Positions 2,545 to 43,811 of a DNA stretch of 43,811 nt are shown here, piece by piece. This stretch comes from Myxococcota bacterium. Lineage in GTDB: Bacteria; Myxococcota_A; Polyangia; Polyangiales; Houyiibacteriaceae. The notes beneath the pieces were generated by a model. It was not told the DNA's origin. It ran no database searches and worked only from the letters and a program-made list of their open reading frames with translations. Made by a program: the position numbers and the translations under genes. The DNA lies in NCBI GenBank assembly GCA_028284955.1, contig JANQQS010000057.1, positions 1-43,811 of the forward strand, in the 5' to 3' direction. How positions within the stretch are numbered: the stretch's first letter is position 1; every line of letters begins with the position of its first letter.

Positions 2545-2600
2545 CGGGAGGGGGATTAACCCCCCTCCCGCCCACTGGGCAGAGCCCAGCGGGACCCACC
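2545..2600 (+). repeat. Two-hairpin 3'-end element, copy E1 (GC-rich variant)
   Basis: Located 10 bp after tRNA-Ala, in its sense. Hairpin 1 is CGGGAGGGGG, loop ATTA, then the complement (2545-2570). Hairpin 2 is CTGGGC-AGA-GCCCAG inside CCC/GGG (2571-2593). ACCCACC follows, corresponding to the TTCACCC of other copies. A module of about 100 bp, rich in CACCGC and GGCGGGGCCCC, follows and recurs after copy E2. There is no T-run after the hairpins; the only T-run precedes them. Confidence 0.7.
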
Positions 2601-2726
2601 CTCCCCACCGCTGCGCCTTTGGCTTGCGTCCCCACCGCGGGGCGGCGGGGCCCCGGCAGTACACGACTCGGGCCATCAGAACACACGCACGCATCATGGC
2701 GGTGGAGTTCGGGTGACTGTGTTGTT

Positions 2727-2781
2727 GGGAGGGTTTGAGGCAAACCCTCCCCCCCGCGGGTACGACCCGCGCGGGTCCCCC
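2727..2781 (+). repeat. Two-hairpin 3'-end element, copy E2 (GC-rich variant)
   Basis: Same strand as tRNA-Ala and in tandem with E1. Hairpin 1 is GGGAGGGTTTG-AGG-CAAACCCTCCC (2727-2751). Hairpin 2 is built on CGCGGGT-ACG-ACCCGCG (about 2753-2775), with the same ACG loop as copies E3, E4, E6 and E7. The trailing module (about 2776-2860) repeats the one after E1, including GGCGGGGCCCCAGCAGCACA at 2832-2851 (the E1 copy reads GGCGGGGCCCCGGCAGTACA). Confidence 0.7.
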
Positions 2782-2885
2782 ACCGGACTCCGGTTGCTGT
2801 CGCGTCCGCCCCACCGCAATGCGGCGGGGCCCCAGCAGCACACCACTCACGAAACCAGGTCACGTGTCTCCTGGCGGGGGAGCTT

Positions 2886-2940
2886 GGGTGAATCGGCGGG
2901 GTCGTACCCCGACGAGAGGGTTTGGGTGCCAAACCCTCAA
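2886..2940 (-). repeat. Two-hairpin 3'-end element, copy E3
   Basis: Second of two tandem copies downstream of bioD, in bioD's sense. Read on the minus strand: AGGGTTTGG-CACC-CAAACCCT, then CTCG, then a hairpin around CGGGGT-ACG-ACCCCG, then GATTCACCC. On the minus strand it is followed by a copy of the 28-bp module CCGCCAGGAGACACG (about 2847-2877), which also follows copy E6. Confidence 0.85.
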
Positions 2941-2965
2941 ACAAAACAGTCTGGCGGGGGCGTTT

Positions 2966-3020
2966 GGGTGAATCGACGGGATCGTATCCCGACGAGAGGG
3001 TTTGGGTGCCAAACCCTCAA
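2966..3020 (-). repeat. Two-hairpin 3'-end element, copy E4
   Basis: On the minus strand the element begins exactly at the bioD stop codon: TGA is the TGA of TGAGGGTTTGG. Hairpin 1 is AGGGTTTGG-CACC-CAAACCCT. Hairpin 2 is CGGGAT-ACG-ATCCCG, followed by GATTCACCC. It is 80 bp from copy E3 and nearly identical in the first hairpin, while the second hairpin differs by paired changes. Confidence 0.88.
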
Positions 3021-3751
3021 GAAAGTACGGTGGAAAGCAGGCCGGACTGTTTGATGGCGTTGGCGAGTGTGTCGTTTGACAGGGGTTCTACGAAGGGGAG
3101 TTCGAATACTGCGGAGTCTCGTATCATCGTGCGAAGAACTGCCGCGTTGTCGGAGACGCTGTGATCGTTGGTGATCGTGTTTTGGGTTCGGACGAGTATG
3201 ATTCCAGCTACTTCGAGGTCTCGCTGGCGGGCCGATTCCCAGTGCGCGAGGGCGTTCGAGAGCACGCCGAGGCGATTGGGTGCGACGATGATGAGCGGCA
3301 TGCCGAGGGCCGCGGCGAGGTCGGCGATGGTTTCTCCTGCGGCGCGCGTCGCAGGCGGGGGATCTTTGGAGCGTGCGTTGACGGAGAGGGGGACCAGCAG
3401 GCCTCCCGCGCCTTCGGCGATAAGGAAGTCGGCGTTGACTTGTATGGCCAACTGACGCACTCGTTCCGCCAGTTGGGATGCGCTTGGGGGCGGCGCAGCT
3501 CCGCGGTTTGTGGCGGTGAGGGGAGCCACCGGAGCTTGCTCGCGATAGAGGCCGGGGGCGTTTGCGAGCGAGGGGATTCCGCATGCGTTGGCTAGAGCGG
3601 TCGCGTCTTTCGGCTCAGGCGCGCATCCGGTTTCGACTGGCTTGATTGCCGCGACTTGCACTTGAGCCCGGGCGAGGGCACGCGCGAAGCCACGCGCGAC
3701 GCAGGTTTTTCCCGCATCGGTGGTTGTTGCCGTGATGAAGACGCCCTTCAT
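3017..3751 (-). CDS. bioD: Dethiobiotin synthetase
   Basis: ATP-dependent synthase that closes the ureido ring of dethiobiotin from 7,8-diaminopelargonate and CO2, the penultimate step of biotin synthesis; cytoplasmic dimer. The 244-residue protein shows the P-loop ATTTDAGKT (residues 8-16; the family usually has GTDTGVGKT, so the first part is diverged but GKT is kept), KPVETGC with K37, and EGAGGLLVPL with E113. It has the P-loop NTPase core length. The ATG overlaps the bioF stop by four bases, so the two are translationally coupled. The stop codon is embedded in the two-hairpin element E4. No bioA, bioB or bioC lies nearby. Confidence 0.93.
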   Translation of the reverse strand: MKGVFITATTTDAGKTCVARGFARALARAQVQVAAIKPVETGCAPEPKDATALANACGIPSLANAPGLYREQAPVAPLTATNRGAAPPPSASQLAERVRQLAIQVNADFLIAEGAGGLLVPLSVNARSKDPPPATRAAGETIADLAAALGMPLIIVAPNRLGVLSNALAHWESARQRDLEVAGIILVRTQNTITNDHSVSDNAAVLRTMIRDSAVFELPFVEPLSNDTLANAIKQSGLLSTVLS

Positions 3752-6519: not shown

Positions 6520-6574
6520 AGGGGGTCTTCCGAGACCCTCTCGATTGGTGAACTCGGTCCACCAATCTTCACCC
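6520..6574 (+). repeat. Two-hairpin 3'-end element, copy E8 (diverged)
   Basis: GGGTCT-TCCG-AGACCC forms hairpin 1 (6523-6538). TCTCG follows. GATTGGTG (6543-6550) pairs perfectly with CACCAATC (6560-6567) as hairpin 2. TTCACCC ends the element (6568-6574). The layout equals the other copies while both stems have different sequence. Confidence 0.7.
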
Positions 6575-6688
6575 CTACCGTAAGAATCGCTTCGCTCAAG
6601 CGGATCGAGCTGCCGCTACTTTGCACAAAACCGTTCCTAGTGAGCGAGGAGGTAAGCCGCAATCAGGCCAAAAGATCAGTGCTCTACG

Positions 6689-16990: not shown

Positions 16991-18421
16991 ATGATGCAGT
17001 CATCTCAGAATCGAATGGGTGGCGTTTCGCCGCAGATTTCTACGTTGGCGATGTATATGCTGGCGCTGCCCGGACTGGCGCTGGTCGCCACAGGATGCGG
17101 CGGCTCAGCATGCAGCGGCTCGGAACGCGGTTCCGCCGAAGGCGACCAGGAAAACGAGCCCTCGACCACCACCGACCTCAAGGCAAACGCAGCCGAGGAT
17201 TCCGCCAAATCCCCGGGCGCGAGCCCCGCAGACCTACCAATGGGGCTCCTGCTCGCCTACTCTCAGTTCGAAATCAAAGACGGGAAACCCACCGCCAAAC
17301 CCAAGGCGGCGCGGCTCGAAATGCTCCACCGAAGCGGCGGTCAGTGGAGCTCGGAAGTCCTCGAAGACGCAGACAGCAACGTCTTTCACAAAGCGATGGT
17401 GCTTTCCTCGCCGCAAGGCTCGCCCGGTCTGCTCACGCTTGGTGGCAGTAAAGCCGCCGTGAAACTATGGGCCCGCGCAAACGGAAAGTGGTCGGCCAAA
17501 ACGCTTTGGACGGAGTCGTTCGGAGGCCGCTTTGACCGGATGCGCGACGCCGAGCTCGGCGATGTGCTCGGCCGAGGAACACCGCAGATCGTGGTCGGCA
17601 CGCACGACCAAGGCGTCGTGGCGACGCTCGAGCATTCGGCCGGCACCTGGACAGTCACGGAGCTCGATCGCACGCCGAATACGTTCATTCACGAAATCGA
17701 ACTCGGCGATTTGGATGGAGACGGGAAACAGGAAATCTACGCCACCCCGAGCGAACCCAACCGGCTCGACGCGAAAGCCCAGTCGGGCCAGGTCGTGCGT
17801 TATGTGCCCGCGTCGCAACGAGGCACCGCAAAGAAGACCGCCATTCGGACAGTGGTAGCCGACCTCGGCAATCGACACGCGAAAGAAATCTTCGTGGGCG
17901 ATGTGGATGGGGATAAGAAAGACGAGCTCTATGTCGTTGTCGAAGGGCGCACCGAAAAAAGCGAAAGCGGCGCGCGGCGAGTCGTGGAGCCCGTAGAAAT
18001 CCGGCGTTACGAAGCCGATACCGATCCGAAACAGGGCGCGGTGATTGCCACGATTGAAGGCGACTCGATGATGCGGTTTTTGACCGCAGGCGATGTCGAT
18101 GGAGACAAGAAACGAGAGCTCGTCGCGGCATCGTTCAGCCAGGGCCTATGGCTCCTACGTCCCGGCTCAAACGCGAGCGGCGAATGGGGCAAAGAGCTGA
18201 TTGACCGCGAATCCGGAGGTTTCGAGCATGCGTCGTTGCTCACTGATCTCGACCAGGACGGCACCGACGAGCTCTACGTGGCCTCGGACCAACACGGAGA
18301 ACTTCGGCGATATACGTGGACGAGCGGGCGATCTCGCCGCGAAGTGATCCACAAACGCGACATTCCCCGCGCGATGATGACGTGGAACATCATGCCCGTC
18401 CCGGCCGCTTTGGTGAAATAG
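16991..18421 (+). CDS. FG-GAP/VCBS-like repeat lipoprotein
   Basis: 476 residues with a signal ending LALPGLALVATGC, then a Ser/Gly/Glu-rich linker. The body carries at least four calcium-type repeats: LGDLDGDGKQEIYA, VGDVDGDKKDELYVVVEG, AGDVDGDKKRELVAAS and LTDLDQDGTDELYVAS. Such DxDxDGxxE repeats form seven-bladed propellers in integrin-like and VCBS proteins. The protein is expected at the outer membrane or surface; its ligand is unknown. It starts at tandem ATG codons. It is divergent from the flippase/sulfatase gene. The stop codon lies in a 17-bp tandem duplication and is followed at once by hexamer array A2. Confidence 0.82.
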   Translation: MMQSSQNRMGGVSPQISTLAMYMLALPGLALVATGCGGSACSGSERGSAEGDQENEPSTTTDLKANAAEDSAKSPGASPADLPMGLLLAYSQFEIKDGKPTAKPKAARLEMLHRSGGQWSSEVLEDADSNVFHKAMVLSSPQGSPGLLTLGGSKAAVKLWARANGKWSAKTLWTESFGGRFDRMRDAELGDVLGRGTPQIVVGTHDQGVVATLEHSAGTWTVTELDRTPNTFIHEIELGDLDGDGKQEIYATPSEPNRLDAKAQSGQVVRYVPASQRGTAKKTAIRTVVADLGNRHAKEIFVGDVDGDKKDELYVVVEGRTEKSESGARRVVEPVEIRRYEADTDPKQGAVIATIEGDSMMRFLTAGDVDGDKKRELVAASFSQGLWLLRPGSNASGEWGKELIDRESGGFEHASLLTDLDQDGTDELYVASDQHGELRRYTWTSGRSRREVIHKRDIPRAMMTWNIMPVPAALVK

Positions 18422-18445
18422 CTGAGGCGGTGAAATAGCCGAGGC
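18412..18445 (+). repeat. 17-bp tandem duplication across a stop codon
   Basis: GGTGAAATAGCTGAGGC and GGTGAAATAGCCGAGGC stand head to tail (18412-18428 and 18429-18445). The first copy contains the TAG of the FG-GAP-like gene. Confidence 0.85.
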
Positions 18446-18634
18446 AGACGCCGAACCAGATGCAGACGCCGAACCAGATGCAGACGCCGAACCAGATGCA
18501 GATGCAGACGCCGAGCCTGAACCAGACGCTGATGCTGATGCCGATACCGATACCGATGCAGATCCCGATGCAGACGCCGAGCCCGACGCTGATGCAGATC
18601 CCGATGCCGATGCCGATCCTGGCGCCACCGCCGA
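18446..18634 (+). repeat. Asp/Ala-phased hexamer array A2
   Basis: About 31 head-to-tail hexamers of the form C(A/C/T)GA(C/T)(G/C/A), beginning with three copies of the 18-mer CAGACGCCGAACCAGATG. It fills the space between two convergent genes. In one plus frame it reads D-A-E-P-D-A-D-A, in one minus frame G-S-A-S-A-S, but neither has a supported start. Confidence 0.88.
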
Positions 18635-18652
18635 TCTCGTAGCGTATCCGCC

Positions 18653-19267
18653 CTACCGACTACGACCGAGCAGCCCGCCGCCGATGGATGCCACCGCGAC
18701 GCCGAGCGAGATCAAGTAGGCGCCCCACAAAGGAGACACATCCACCACGTAGCCGGTTCGCTCAGCGATCTCACGGGTCGCCCGCGCAATCTGAGCAAAA
18801 CTGTAGATGAGCGATGCCCCGCCAATCAGGGCGATGGCCATCAACGCGAGGCGCGCTTGGCGCATGTGCACGAGGGTGCGGCGGCGTCCCAGCAGGGCGA
18901 GCAATCCGAGCGCCACGCTGGGAATCATCCAAAGATTCGTGGCCTGCGTGATCGCGAGATCAAATGCGGACGCAACCGCCGGCCCTGCCCCACCCCGATA
19001 GGACGAAGCGTCGAGCGCGGTCCGTACCAGAGGCGCGAAAAAGCCCACCAGCATCAACCCCGATCCCGCGGCCACGACGCCTCGGCCATGGCGCAGAGAA
19101 AACGGCGCCACGGGCGCGTGTTCATCGATAGGTTCGTAGAGCGCCGGGTCAGGCGGCAAGCGGTCAAACGGAACCAGAGCCAGCTCATGCTCAGGACAAT
19201 GCGTTAGGCCTTCAAAGCTCTCGCGGCAAAACGGACAAAAGAGCACTTCGGGCTCATAACTACCCAC
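18653..19267 (-). CDS. Membrane protein with N-terminal zinc knuckle
   Basis: About 204 residues from GTG 19267; a TTG at 19309 would add 14 residues across a hairpin and is less likely. The N-terminus VLFCPFCRESFEGLTHCPEHELALVPFD has a CxxC...CPEH zinc-binding pattern. Four probable membrane helices follow (GVVAAGSGLMLVGFFAPLV, LWMIPSVALGLLALL, LALMAIALIGGASLIYSF, GAYLISLGVAVASIGGGLL). The function is unknown; such proteins are often regulators or chaperones at the membrane. It is downstream of the M14 gene on the same strand, separated by a hairpin AGAGCAG...CTGCTCT at 19269-19294. Confidence 0.7.
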   Translation of the reverse strand: MGSYEPEVLFCPFCRESFEGLTHCPEHELALVPFDRLPPDPALYEPIDEHAPVAPFSLRHGRGVVAAGSGLMLVGFFAPLVRTALDASSYRGGAGPAVASAFDLAITQATNLWMIPSVALGLLALLGRRRTLVHMRQARLALMAIALIGGASLIYSFAQIARATREIAERTGYVVDVSPLWGAYLISLGVAVASIGGGLLGRSR

Positions 19268-20130: not shown

Positions 20131-20970
20131 ATGAACGTTCGCTCGATTCATCTGGTCGCTCGATGTGCTCCGCTGCTGCTCGCGCTGGCGAGCGTACAGG
20201 GAGGCTCCACGATTCATTCCCAGGCTTCGGCCCAGGCGACATCCAAGCACGCGAAAGGTCGTCATTCCAAGCCGAGGCGAGCGCCGGTACCCGACGACGT
20301 GCCGTCCAAGCCGCGCAACGAAACGCAATGCAACTATCAAGAGCCGATTGCGTTTTTGGTCCGCGAAAACTTTCTCGCGCGTTCGAGCCACCCTCCAGGC
20401 GAACGAAAAGCACGACGCGCGATGCAGACTCAGGCGGTCAAGTTTCGCACCGAACACTACGGCTACTTCGAAGGCTTTGGCCGAGCGGCCTGGAACCGCC
20501 GCACACCAAGCGACCATGCCAAGCGAGTTTCGTTCATGGGTCGCACCGTGCGCGTGAATGAAAAAATCGCGCCTGCACTCGCCTGCGTAGAACAACAGCT
20601 CCGCGCCGAATGCACCGAGCCTCGCTACGAACCCAAGCGGCTCTCCGGGCTACGCACGCGAAACACCTACCACAACGGACAGGTCAGCAATCACGTGTAT
20701 GGCATCGCGGTCGACGTCGACCCCAGCGAAAACACGTGCTGCATGTGCGTCGCCAAATGGCAAGACCATCCACGCTGTCAAAACGAAGCTTCATCGATCT
20801 ACGAGCGCATGATCATGCCGCCATGCTGGGTGCACGTATTCGAGCGCTTCGGGTTCTACTGGCTCGGGCGCGACCGCCTCCAAGACACCATGCACTTCGA
20901 GTTCCTCGGCCACCCCGACCACATCCTTAAAAGCGCCGGCCCCCCACCGACCGACCAGTCTGGTAGTTGA
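20131..20970 (+). CDS. M15-type D,D-/L,D-peptidase-like exported protein
   Basis: 279 residues from ATG 20131, which has AGGAGG three bases upstream. The upstream TTG at 20095 is less likely. A signal segment CAPLLLALASVQG precedes a basic linker. The catalytic domain has NHVYGIAVDVDPSENTCC, matching the SxHxxGxAxD metal motif (H and D as ligands), and DTMHFEFLGHP with the HxE/H pair of M15 (VanY-like) peptidases. Extra cysteines (TCCMCV, RCQNEA, PPCW) suggest disulfides. Its likely role is trimming peptidoglycan stem peptides. It is divergent from the M14 gene. Hexamer array A3 begins right after the stop codon. Confidence 0.82.
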   Translation: MNVRSIHLVARCAPLLLALASVQGGSTIHSQASAQATSKHAKGRHSKPRRAPVPDDVPSKPRNETQCNYQEPIAFLVRENFLARSSHPPGERKARRAMQTQAVKFRTEHYGYFEGFGRAAWNRRTPSDHAKRVSFMGRTVRVNEKIAPALACVEQQLRAECTEPRYEPKRLSGLRTRNTYHNGQVSNHVYGIAVDVDPSENTCCMCVAKWQDHPRCQNEASSIYERMIMPPCWVHVFERFGFYWLGRDRLQDTMHFEFLGHPDHILKSAGPPPTDQSGS

Positions 20971-20972
20971 AA

Positions 20973-21215
20973 CGGACGCTGACGCAGATTCCGACACCGA
21001 CGCTGAACCCGATTCAGACGCTGAATCAGACGCCGATGCCGAACCTGGAGCTGAATCTGATCCCGATGTTGATGCCGACCCTGATCCCGGTCCAGCACCA
21101 GGATCGGTATCAGCATCTGCACCAGGATCGGCATGGGGTTCAGGTACCGGGTCGGCTTCGGCACCAGCGTCGGCTTCGGCACCAGCATCGGGTTCGGCAT
21201 CTGATGTCATCTGAT
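20973..21215 (+). repeat. Asp/Ala-phased hexamer array A3, with inversion
   Basis: The first half (to about 21097) is GACGCTGACGCAGATTCC-like on the plus strand. From about 21098 on the same hexamers appear as their reverse complement (GGATCGGCATGGGG, CAGCGTCGGCTTCGGCACC). A transcript could fold back over roughly 100 bases. A +2 frame overlapping the end of the peptidase gene reads V-V-E-T-D-A-D-A-D-S-D-T-D through the array. Confidence 0.85.
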
Positions 21216-21350
21216 GCGGCATCGGTGTCGGGCCTCGGGGCTCCGAGCCTTTCGCAGAGAGAGGACGAGGTAAGCCGCGCTTAGGCCAAAAGGACACTGC
21301 TCTAGTGCTGTTCATTTGCTGCACAGTAAAAATTCGCATAGATTTCCAGA

Positions 21351-24300: not shown

Positions 24301-24830
24301 CGCAGTTTATCGCGCATCTGCTCGATGAAGACGCCCAGCCGGAGGCGTACGCTTCGGCGCTGCTCGCCGCCGCCGATTTGCTGCAGCAGCTCGATACCGA
24401 TCGCAACCGGGTGCCGCTGATGCGCGCGCTTTCCGAAGGCGTGACGGTCGGCGTGCGACGCGCGGTGGAGGACGGTGAGCCGGCGATGCTCGACCGCAAC
24501 GCGCTCCCCGACGGCGTACTTGGCGAAACCCTCCAGTTGCTTGGTGAAGCTCAAAAACAAGACGACAATCGAACGCTGAGCGGCATCTTGCGGCGGCTCG
24601 CAACCAATCCCGCGAGCTCCGCGTCCGACGGCGACGACGTCATCGAGAGCCGGCTTGAAACGCTGCTCGACGTCATTGGGGAAGTCAACCGCGCGCGCCC
24701 CGGCGAAACATCCAGCTTGCAGAGCGCAGACTATCAGGAAGTGTTTCGACAGATGGCGGAGTTTTTCCTCAGTGAAGAACGCGGAATGGAGCGACTGTAC
24801 CAAGTGATTCAACATCGGCGGATCGAATGA
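21351..24830 (+). CDS. Very large (1159 aa) lipoprotein, function unknown
   Basis: The signal peptide VRRTTLCAIALLSAC has its lipidated cysteine at residue 23. The mature protein is largely helical and acidic, without low-complexity except FVDADADGLADVDALDRL near residue 270, which resembles a calcium loop. A cluster of ordinary globular sequence follows, including LFLGPPADQSATRGQTTLTY, VRIRLPIIGTITVPFANFGE and LNGILAVTSIFGLNADSLIQ. No recognised catalytic motif is seen. The length and the absence of membrane segments suggest a periplasmic or outer-membrane protein. A pair of two-hairpin elements follows the stop, and a FadL-type porin follows those, so both could act at the outer membrane. 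Confidence 0.8.
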   Translation: MFRMYGVVVRRTTLCAIALLSACAGDFDSERVAPQRASIGEELYRVFCERMASEALPRDVTGSQTRALCAGRAGPESAPEGRLRAFAERREVVVNTLNAVFPEAEGDDFVLLLRRFLPLYEPPEEVLPSQTRSLGQLLGSLREDAPGLEALQRVSAQEGYRPAALGLGMLKTLLVYPRLPEVTARLRATIEPGGIAEDEWDDLQRAVAAEMASASERDPNDADSVSTLSLVRDLLWQERSEWAGTQSLSLPIRDSRGIAVPRRVGDSVVAPFVDADADGLADVDALDRLVTTTGEPPPSPFAVAGDQTARDAEGRAIGADGMPLYAYQQVSQSLLAGLLRNSQSLFEGRDATEAEGLSLAKGLSLFLGPPADQSATRGQTTLTYRGYDTDGGPWFDLIHAAGSVAHEAATDDVLSALHTLLTQNDPTLAGLVESVRFGNQRGDAEPDVQLPDDSEFWDDLIQIGTWIAQEPGLMEALLRAFADPRTARLGPMLGELMRHRDTFAFDADLNRPLRTITFVDEVDRGTADDAGNESIFQRLASIIHDFDGTRWCNKADARVRIRLPIIGTITVPFANFGECDLIEIEDMSQTYALSMVGRARIDIKSGFLNGILAVTSIFGLNADSLIQGQSGIDGLTTSPTPEALNRLIFSERNNFLTSVMDPPRTRDGALAEQRHDPVLLAWERAYQFCGDEIQDPGAPCDRPEVLTFYQALSPIIDAFDRFDRRTEGRFLFNRFISRLHLHWPSPANPRTQSMNPQAAFYATHDDVRSFEPIVSDLFSDCAWMPTETARVCEAGASGKLFRRLHEIAVRLQSIPVRPGVNGLQAVAGLAESWFNPALHPELTTRSGSRTTRTNAGSREPEVAPLYLMVDAFSAMGRALDASGDAQTRWDAALTQLGSTWLTTTPIESTSQVQFVNDAFPPMAGALVTFARDRIAVHRDAGDLGIWSESLDDRAVDAFGGPLGATVISFLAAVEEDPDARAELSQFIAHLLDEDAQPEAYASALLAAADLLQQLDTDRNRVPLMRALSEGVTVGVRRAVEDGEPAMLDRNALPDGVLGETLQLLGEAQKQDDNRTLSGILRRLATNPASSASDGDDVIESRLETLLDVIGEVNRARPGETSSLQSADYQEVFRQMAEFFLSEERGMERLYQVIQHRRIE

Positions 24831-24833
24831 TCT

Positions 24834-24886
24834 TAGGGTCTGGCACCCAGACCCTCTCGTCGGGGTACAACCCCGCCGATTCACCC
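24834..24886 (+). repeat. Two-hairpin 3'-end element, copy E5
   Basis: Starts three bases after the stop codon of the 1159-residue gene. Hairpin 1 is AGGGTCTGG-CACC-CAGACCCT: relative to E3/E4/E7 a T-A pair has become C-G on both sides. Then CTCG, a hairpin on CGGGGT/ACCCCG with loop ACA/ACG-like, and GATTCACCC. Confidence 0.87.
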
Positions 24887-24899
24887 AACTGTGCTTTCT

Positions 24900-24952
24900 T
24901 AGGGTCTGGCACCCAGACCCTCTGGCTGGGATACGATCCCAGCCATTCACCC
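24900..24952 (+). repeat. Two-hairpin 3'-end element, copy E6
   Basis: Tandem to E5 at a 66-bp period. Hairpin 1 equals E5. Hairpin 2 is GGCTGGGAT-ACG-ATCCCAGCC, perfectly paired though its arms differ from every other copy. It ends ATTCACCC. Confidence 0.9.
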
Positions 24953-24960
24953 AAACTCCC

Positions 24961-25044
24961 CCGCCAGGAGACACGCGCGGTGGTTTCACCGCCAGGAGGC
25001 ACGCGCGGTGGTTTCCCCGCCAGGAGACACGCGCGGTGGTTTCG
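24961..25044 (+). repeat. 28-bp module repeated three times
   Basis: Units at 24961-24988, 24989-25016 and 25017-25044 begin CCGCCAGGAGACACGCGCGG and continue TGGTTTCN. They differ at one internal base and the last base. One further copy follows element E3 on the minus strand at about 2847-2877. Confidence 0.92.
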
Positions 25045-43754: not shown

Positions 43755-43810
43755 TGAGGGTTTGGCACCCAAACCCTCTCGTTCGGGATACGATCCCGAA
43801 CGATTCACCC
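43755..43810 (+). repeat. Two-hairpin 3'-end element, copy E7
   Basis: Six bases after the last ExbD stop. Hairpin 1 is AGGGTTTGG-CACC-CAAACCCT. Hairpin 2 is CGTTCGGGAT-ACG-ATCCCGAACG, the longest perfectly paired version seen. It ends ATTCACCC one base before the window edge, so a tandem partner could follow outside. Confidence 0.9.
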
Positions 43811-43811
43811 G

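Follow-up and report, generated by a model that had tools for sequence, protein, structure and literature searches.

Paired-hairpin elements behind stop codons in Myxococcota: a probable superfamily of small REP-like mobile DNA

REPs are palindromic repeats; they are known to occur up to 20 bp from the 3' ends of genes and can supply stop codons (PMC3733652). A GTAG REP consists of one 20-40 bp palindrome with an unpaired GTAG (GTGG) at the hairpin foot, and the gene for the RAYT transposase (PF01797) is flanked by inverted copies. CGTC REPs carry a terminal unpaired CGTC (TGTC/CCTC), a CCA-like tail and stems of 8-9 bp, of which the first two pairs are A-T (PMC3733652). For the bacterial group studied here we found no described REP, and word searches of two papers on GTAG REPs (PMC2817692, PMC3733652) found no mention of its class.

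The window, a contig of 43,811 nucleotides from a Myxococcota genome, was credited in a first-pass annotation with eight copies (E1-E8) of an element with two hairpins in one order. The covariance model (R3) identified five full two-hairpin copies (E3-E7), with scores of 69-75 bits and E-values of about 1e-13 to 1e-15. Each full copy comprised AGGG-stem-CCCT, C, a second stem and TTCACCC. E8 was confirmed as a real, though divergent, copy. The features were located as follows.

2545-2720, minus strand: second partial copy, headless; its 3' hairpin pair (2546-2598) is E1
2727-2884, minus strand: body and 3' end of a long copy, from alignment and fold
2885-2937, minus strand: element copy 2; hairpin 1 2917-2937, hairpin 2 2893-2915, TTCACCC 2886-2892
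2965-3017, minus strand: element copy 1; hairpin 1 2997-3017, C, hairpin 2 2973-2995, TTCACCC 2966-2972
3017-3751, minus strand: bioD (dethiobiotin synthase), the gene upstream of the minus-strand array; its TGA overlaps the element start
6520-6575, plus strand: divergent copy E8 of a second subfamily, with unrelated stems in the same layout (25 bits, E 4e-4)
24835-24887, plus strand: element copy E5; hairpin 1 24835-24855, hairpin 2 24857-24879, TTCACCC 24880-24886
24901-24953, plus strand: element copy E6, in tandem with E5; hairpin 1 24901-24921, hairpin 2 24923-24945, TTCACCC 24946-24952
24959-25043, plus strand: three tandem 28-nt units CCCCGCCAGGAGACACGCGCGGTGGTTTC, a repeat family that reiterates the start of the element body
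43757-43811, plus strand: element copy E7; hairpin 1 43757-43777, hairpin 2 43779-43803, TTCACCC 43804-43810
6646-6688 and 21264-21304 of the window, L082:4141-4312 and L094:4402-4573: second repeat type

E1 (2546-2598) and E2 (2730-2782) lack TTCACCC and did not hold as full-order copies; both are the 3'-terminal hairpin pairs of longer copies, in mirror order and on the same strand as E3 and E4. Copy 2 is the head of a long copy that extends to about 2727. In the 2727-2884 portion, a CACGTG-centred hairpin is followed by a GGGGCCCCGCCGC../GCGGTGGGG hairpin and then by the mirror-order pair that had been annotated as E2 (HP2' 2755-2771, HP1' 2727-2751). A tRNA gene was observed at 2462-2534; about 10 nt separate its 3' end from the final hairpin of the array on the minus strand.

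At each of its three main sites in the window, the element immediately follows a gene of the same strand. The first A of copy 1 is the final base of the bioD TGA stop; E5 starts 4 nt past the stop codon of a gene ending at 24830, which encodes a protein of about 1156 aa with no named domain; and E7, which is cut off by the contig end, starts 8 nt past the stop codon of a gene for an ExbD/TolR-like protein. The exchange of TTTGG/CCAAA for TCTGG/CCAGA in stem 1 was present as annotated, as were the differing second stems, which read GGCTGGGAT/ATCCCAGCC in E6 and CGTTCGGGAT/ATCCCGAACG in E7. A motif similar to the 28-nt units also comes after TTCACCC in other copies.

Other repeats were seen nearby. 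The second repeat type (TAGAGCAGTGGCCTTTTGGCCTGAGCGCGGCTTACC...CGCTCAGACCAAAATTCCACTGCTCTA) is a long near-perfect hairpin with TA at both ends, and its first TAG can serve as the stop codon of the preceding gene. Long Asp/Ala/Pro-type codon repeat runs (GATGCCGACGC..) were noted at 18420-18653 and 20960-21202.

The element is present in high copy number. The hairpin-1 pattern GGGTNTGGCACCCANACCC, with at most one mismatch, gave 245 matches in the 6.07-Mb genome of the window (G000) and 0 when the pattern was reversed; 245 is probably a lower bound, as many contigs end inside an element. A strict detector run on 1.18 Mb of shuffled sequence gave no copies. Alignment showed the head to be the best conserved part of the element, with longer copies extending some 230-300 nt through further hairpins. 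E8 has a sister with like stems at L084:19492-19547 (minus strand), and L094:19019-19075 carries yet another set of stems in the same layout. An alternative pairing of stem 1 with a distal TTCACCCAAAC box was rejected, as the box does not track the T/C change in stem 1.

The pairing was analysed in four alignments (A1-A4), all of which exceeded both the shuffled and the slid controls on the main measures. A1 (window's genome, 50 copies) and A2 (genus g9) were gathered by sequence similarity, with no requirement for pairing. In A1, 61 cells were changed on both sides, compared with 20 in the shuffled control and 0-2 in slid pairings, where the signal is lost. Both-side changes numbered 62 in A3 (two genera; 21 in the control), affecting 10 of 18 pairs, and 56 in A4 (four lineages; 15 in the control), affecting 12 of 17 pairs with no one-sided change. 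The covariation score of A4 was 0.398, relative to 0.108 in the control. The results support the annotated claim that the fold, rather than the sequence, is kept: it persists across families though the stem letters differ almost entirely.

Over 158 copies, hairpin 1 contained 1434 Watson-Crick, 3 G-U, 1 A-C and 5 other pairs. Nearly all stem changes affect both sides and give Watson-Crick pairs; intermediates are very few. The fourth pair of hairpin 2 is often a T-C mismatch in G000 (unpaired in 30 of the 50 A1 copies), and the same mismatch was seen in copies from genus g75. The scarcity of G-U pairs lends no weight to selection on RNA alone, which would be expected to tolerate them, whereas folded single-stranded DNA or arm-to-arm correction would not. 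The covariation could also be a mutational by-product of template switching between quasi-palindrome arms, with no selection on the fold, and the near-uniform change of both sides with so few intermediates would be consistent with this. We consider this explanation unlikely: it leaves the constant AGGG/CCCT, C and TTCACCC across families unexplained, as well as the stop-adjacent sense placement described below, and the hairpin 2 mismatch persists at one position without having been corrected.

Plain DNA similarity placed the element in G008 and G015 (another genus of the same family), with a weak 25-base match in G020. Structure-aware models found it in ten genera of the order (17 of 184 order genomes) and in 14 of 379 genomes of a phylum sample, which were all of one class and added two genera of that class; these models found no element in any other class among the 379. 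The layout AGGG-stem-CCCT-C-stem-TTCACCC was thereby found in 12 genera, six families and one class of Myxococcota, probably Polyangia. The stems are unrelated between lineages yet still pair (AGGGGGACGCCTCGCGTCCCCCT / TCGTCCGGGCAAAGCCCGGACGA in g75 versus AGGGGAACCTCTCGGTTCCCCT / GCTGCGGGGGCGAAGCCCCCTCCGC in G484), although the lineages beyond G000, g9 and G020 were found by structure-aware models, so that pairing there was partly selected for. AGGG, CCCT, the following C and TTCACCC are constant across lineages. The copies were gathered partly through model or pattern matches and are not a random sample. The G255 matches resemble a tandem satellite and were not used as evidence; at G255:C50:6047-6778 (L247, L251), R3 matches recur at near-regular spacing.

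Presence/absence polymorphism of the element was observed at six sites in genus g75 (S1-S6). The upstream genes were identified in each of the six g75 genomes (76-100% identity), and 30 of the 36 downstream regions were read: those of all six genomes at S1, S3 and S6, of five genomes at S4 and at S5, and of two genomes at S2. At five of the six sites the element was intact in one species only, and the orthologous sites read empty or, once, held a remnant. S1-S4 carried the element in one genome and lacked it in all others read, and S5 had an intact element in one genome and an internally deleted remnant in a second. Three genomes carried the element at S6, a fourth had a remnant and two lacked it. 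Of the three copies, two have flanking variants in common and are distinguished by a compensatory C-G/T-A exchange in stem 1.

At S1 and S3-S5, the filled alleles exceed the empty ones by 107-117 bp, inserted immediately after the stop codon, and no target duplication was evident. S2 had one empty allele, and its 3' part differs. The ends of the inserted unit vary, and no protein is encoded within it. The empty alleles have the apparent stop codon of a gene that we read as convergent 0-3 nt past the upstream stop (junctions TAG-CTA, TGA-TT-TTA, TGA-GAT-TCA and TGA-TTC-TCA). The elements are mobile, and the filled and empty orthologous sites give direct support to the REP-like mobile sequence that had been listed as one alternative in the first pass. 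It is improbable that they are MITEs, in which the hairpins would travel as passengers between the terminal inverted repeats of some DDE insertion sequence. Some G000 copies are bounded by TAGAGCAGTG..CACTGCTCTA, and the g75 unit can have CTAG at both ends; however, most copies lack such ends, and no target-site duplication was evident at the filled sites.

The placement at gene 3' ends claimed for the window copies was borne out on a larger scale. Among 132 first-of-cluster copies with at least 320 nt upstream, 30 had no clear coding signal, and in the 102 classifiable copies from all lineages the sequence upstream of hairpin 1 coded in the sense direction in 93 cases and in the antisense direction in 9, from approximate gene calls over about 1.1 Mb of G000 and few-kb loci elsewhere. 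Between genes of the same direction, 29 elements were sense and 5 antisense (p = 4e-5), and no divergent gene pair was present among the classified copies. In copies whose upstream stop codon could be assigned to a position at or ahead of the element, its distance from AGGG was mostly no more than a few tens of bases. Neither a lack of covariation nor random placement, the two outcomes named in the first pass as speaking against its interpretation, was found. Four copies in genus g9 (L069, L072, L077 and L136) sit within sense frames that stay open across them. As read from translation, a squalene-hopene-cyclase-like gene around L077:1500 (minus strand) seems to hold the element in frame. Around L168:1500 (minus strand), ATGGCYAARATCGTAGGACTT flanks the element on both sides, like a duplicated gene start.

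The sense, stop-adjacent position in all lineages suggests another reading, in which the element is a functional RNA 3'-end signal whose hairpins guard the mRNA from 3' exonucleases, whose C-rich TTCACCC promotes (for example Rho-dependent) termination, and whose spread is secondary. The predicted strong folds followed by an unpaired C-rich stretch would suit such a role, as would the conservation of the head. In contrast, the sites are polymorphic between close species, some copies are inside reading frames, the hairpins are not followed by a U-run, no curated Rfam covariance model matches, and the hairpin 1 pair counts reveal no RNA-specific tolerance. We regard this reading as a real, though lesser, possibility.

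Candidates for the enzyme that moves the element were also considered. One candidate was a RAYT (Y1) transposase acting on a REP/BIME of the classical kind. REPs are known to have a high copy number, palindromes, compensatory stems, a location at gene 3' ends and some copies within genes (PMC3733652, PMC2817692). However, the elements have no GTAG head, PF01797 had no match in the element-rich genomes G152, G153 and G002, and in genomes with PF01797 no element was found within about 1.5 kb of it; we therefore consider this origin highly improbable. A reverse transcriptase (PF00078) was rejected as a general mobiliser, as it was not found in G000 or G121. A hidden transposase between neighbouring copies was likewise rejected, only an enoyl-CoA hydratase, an HhH-GPD glycosylase and TPR proteins being present there. 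No mobilising enzyme was found among RAYT/Y1, reverse transcriptase and the genes between neighbouring copies. As the mobilisers tried (Y1/RAYT and reverse transcriptase) fail, the element appears to be REP-like and recognised as folded DNA by another enzyme.

In our assessment, these sequences are likely to be REP-like mobile DNA, a superfamily whose members are small and non-autonomous. The constant head (AGGG-stem1-CCCT, one to a few nt, usually C, CT or CTC, stem2 and single-stranded TTCACCC) is followed by one or more further hairpins, and the inserted unit measures about 107-117 bp in the one genus with readable empty sites. An enzyme acting in trans may recognise the hairpins as folded single-stranded DNA, and copies outside gene ends would mostly be lost through harm to genes. 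After insertion, transcription of the upstream gene would continue into the element and make it that gene's 3' UTR. There the hairpins, with the C-rich single strand behind them, could influence termination or set the 3' end of the mRNA; such a 3'-UTR role is plausible. Points against this assessment are that no mobilising enzyme was found among the candidates examined, that the ends of the inserted unit vary, and that simple DNA transposition leaves the sense-orientation bias unexplained.

More tentatively, and with some doubt on our part, the elements could represent a new mobile class, in which the enzyme reads structure (two hairpins and TTCACCC) in place of sequence and inserts in the sense direction at stop codons. 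If so, portable 3' UTRs would have spread through the genomes of a bacterial class, and if the element sets mRNA 3' ends, hundreds of genes would have gained one 3' UTR by insertion. The superfamily adds a REP-like group that is neither GTAG nor CGTC and, on present evidence, is not RAYT-driven. It raises two questions: what moves the element, and what makes its copies settle in sense orientation next to the stop codons of genes.

The elements resemble GTAG REPs and BIMEs with RAYT in being short, high-copy palindromes near stop codons, with compensatory stems and some intragenic copies (PMC2817692, PMC3733652). They share the high copy number, extragenic location and proximity to gene 3' ends of that class; however, the GTAG is absent from A1-A4, where the constants are AGGG/CCCT and TTCACCC, and two different hairpins in fixed order with TTCACCC replace the one palindrome, with no RAYT partner. 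The elements also have a strong sense orientation, which to our knowledge is not a property of REPs, and we found no such description.

The CGTC REPs, including RPE-4 and RPE-6 of Rickettsia, are similar in being palindromes without a dedicated transposase that occur at gene ends and, in frame, within genes (PMC3733652). The elements differ from these in lacking a constant CGTC tag or CCA tail, in other stem and loop dimensions, in a stem 1 that starts A-T then G-C (A4), and in the two-hairpin head. With MITEs they share small size, non-autonomy and presence/absence polymorphism, but the terminal inverted repeats are not constant (TAGAGC/GCTCTA-like ends occur in some copies only), and no target-site duplication was evident at S1 and S3-S5. 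Integron attC sites carry RYYYAAC and GTTRRRY core boxes, and inspection of A4 showed no constant boxes of this kind. Intrinsic terminators are likewise G+C-rich hairpins directly behind stop codons; in the elements, however, hairpin 1 is followed by C(TC) and hairpin 2 by TTCACCC in place of a U-run (A1-A4), the linker and TTCACCC are constant, and the whole is dispersed and mobile.
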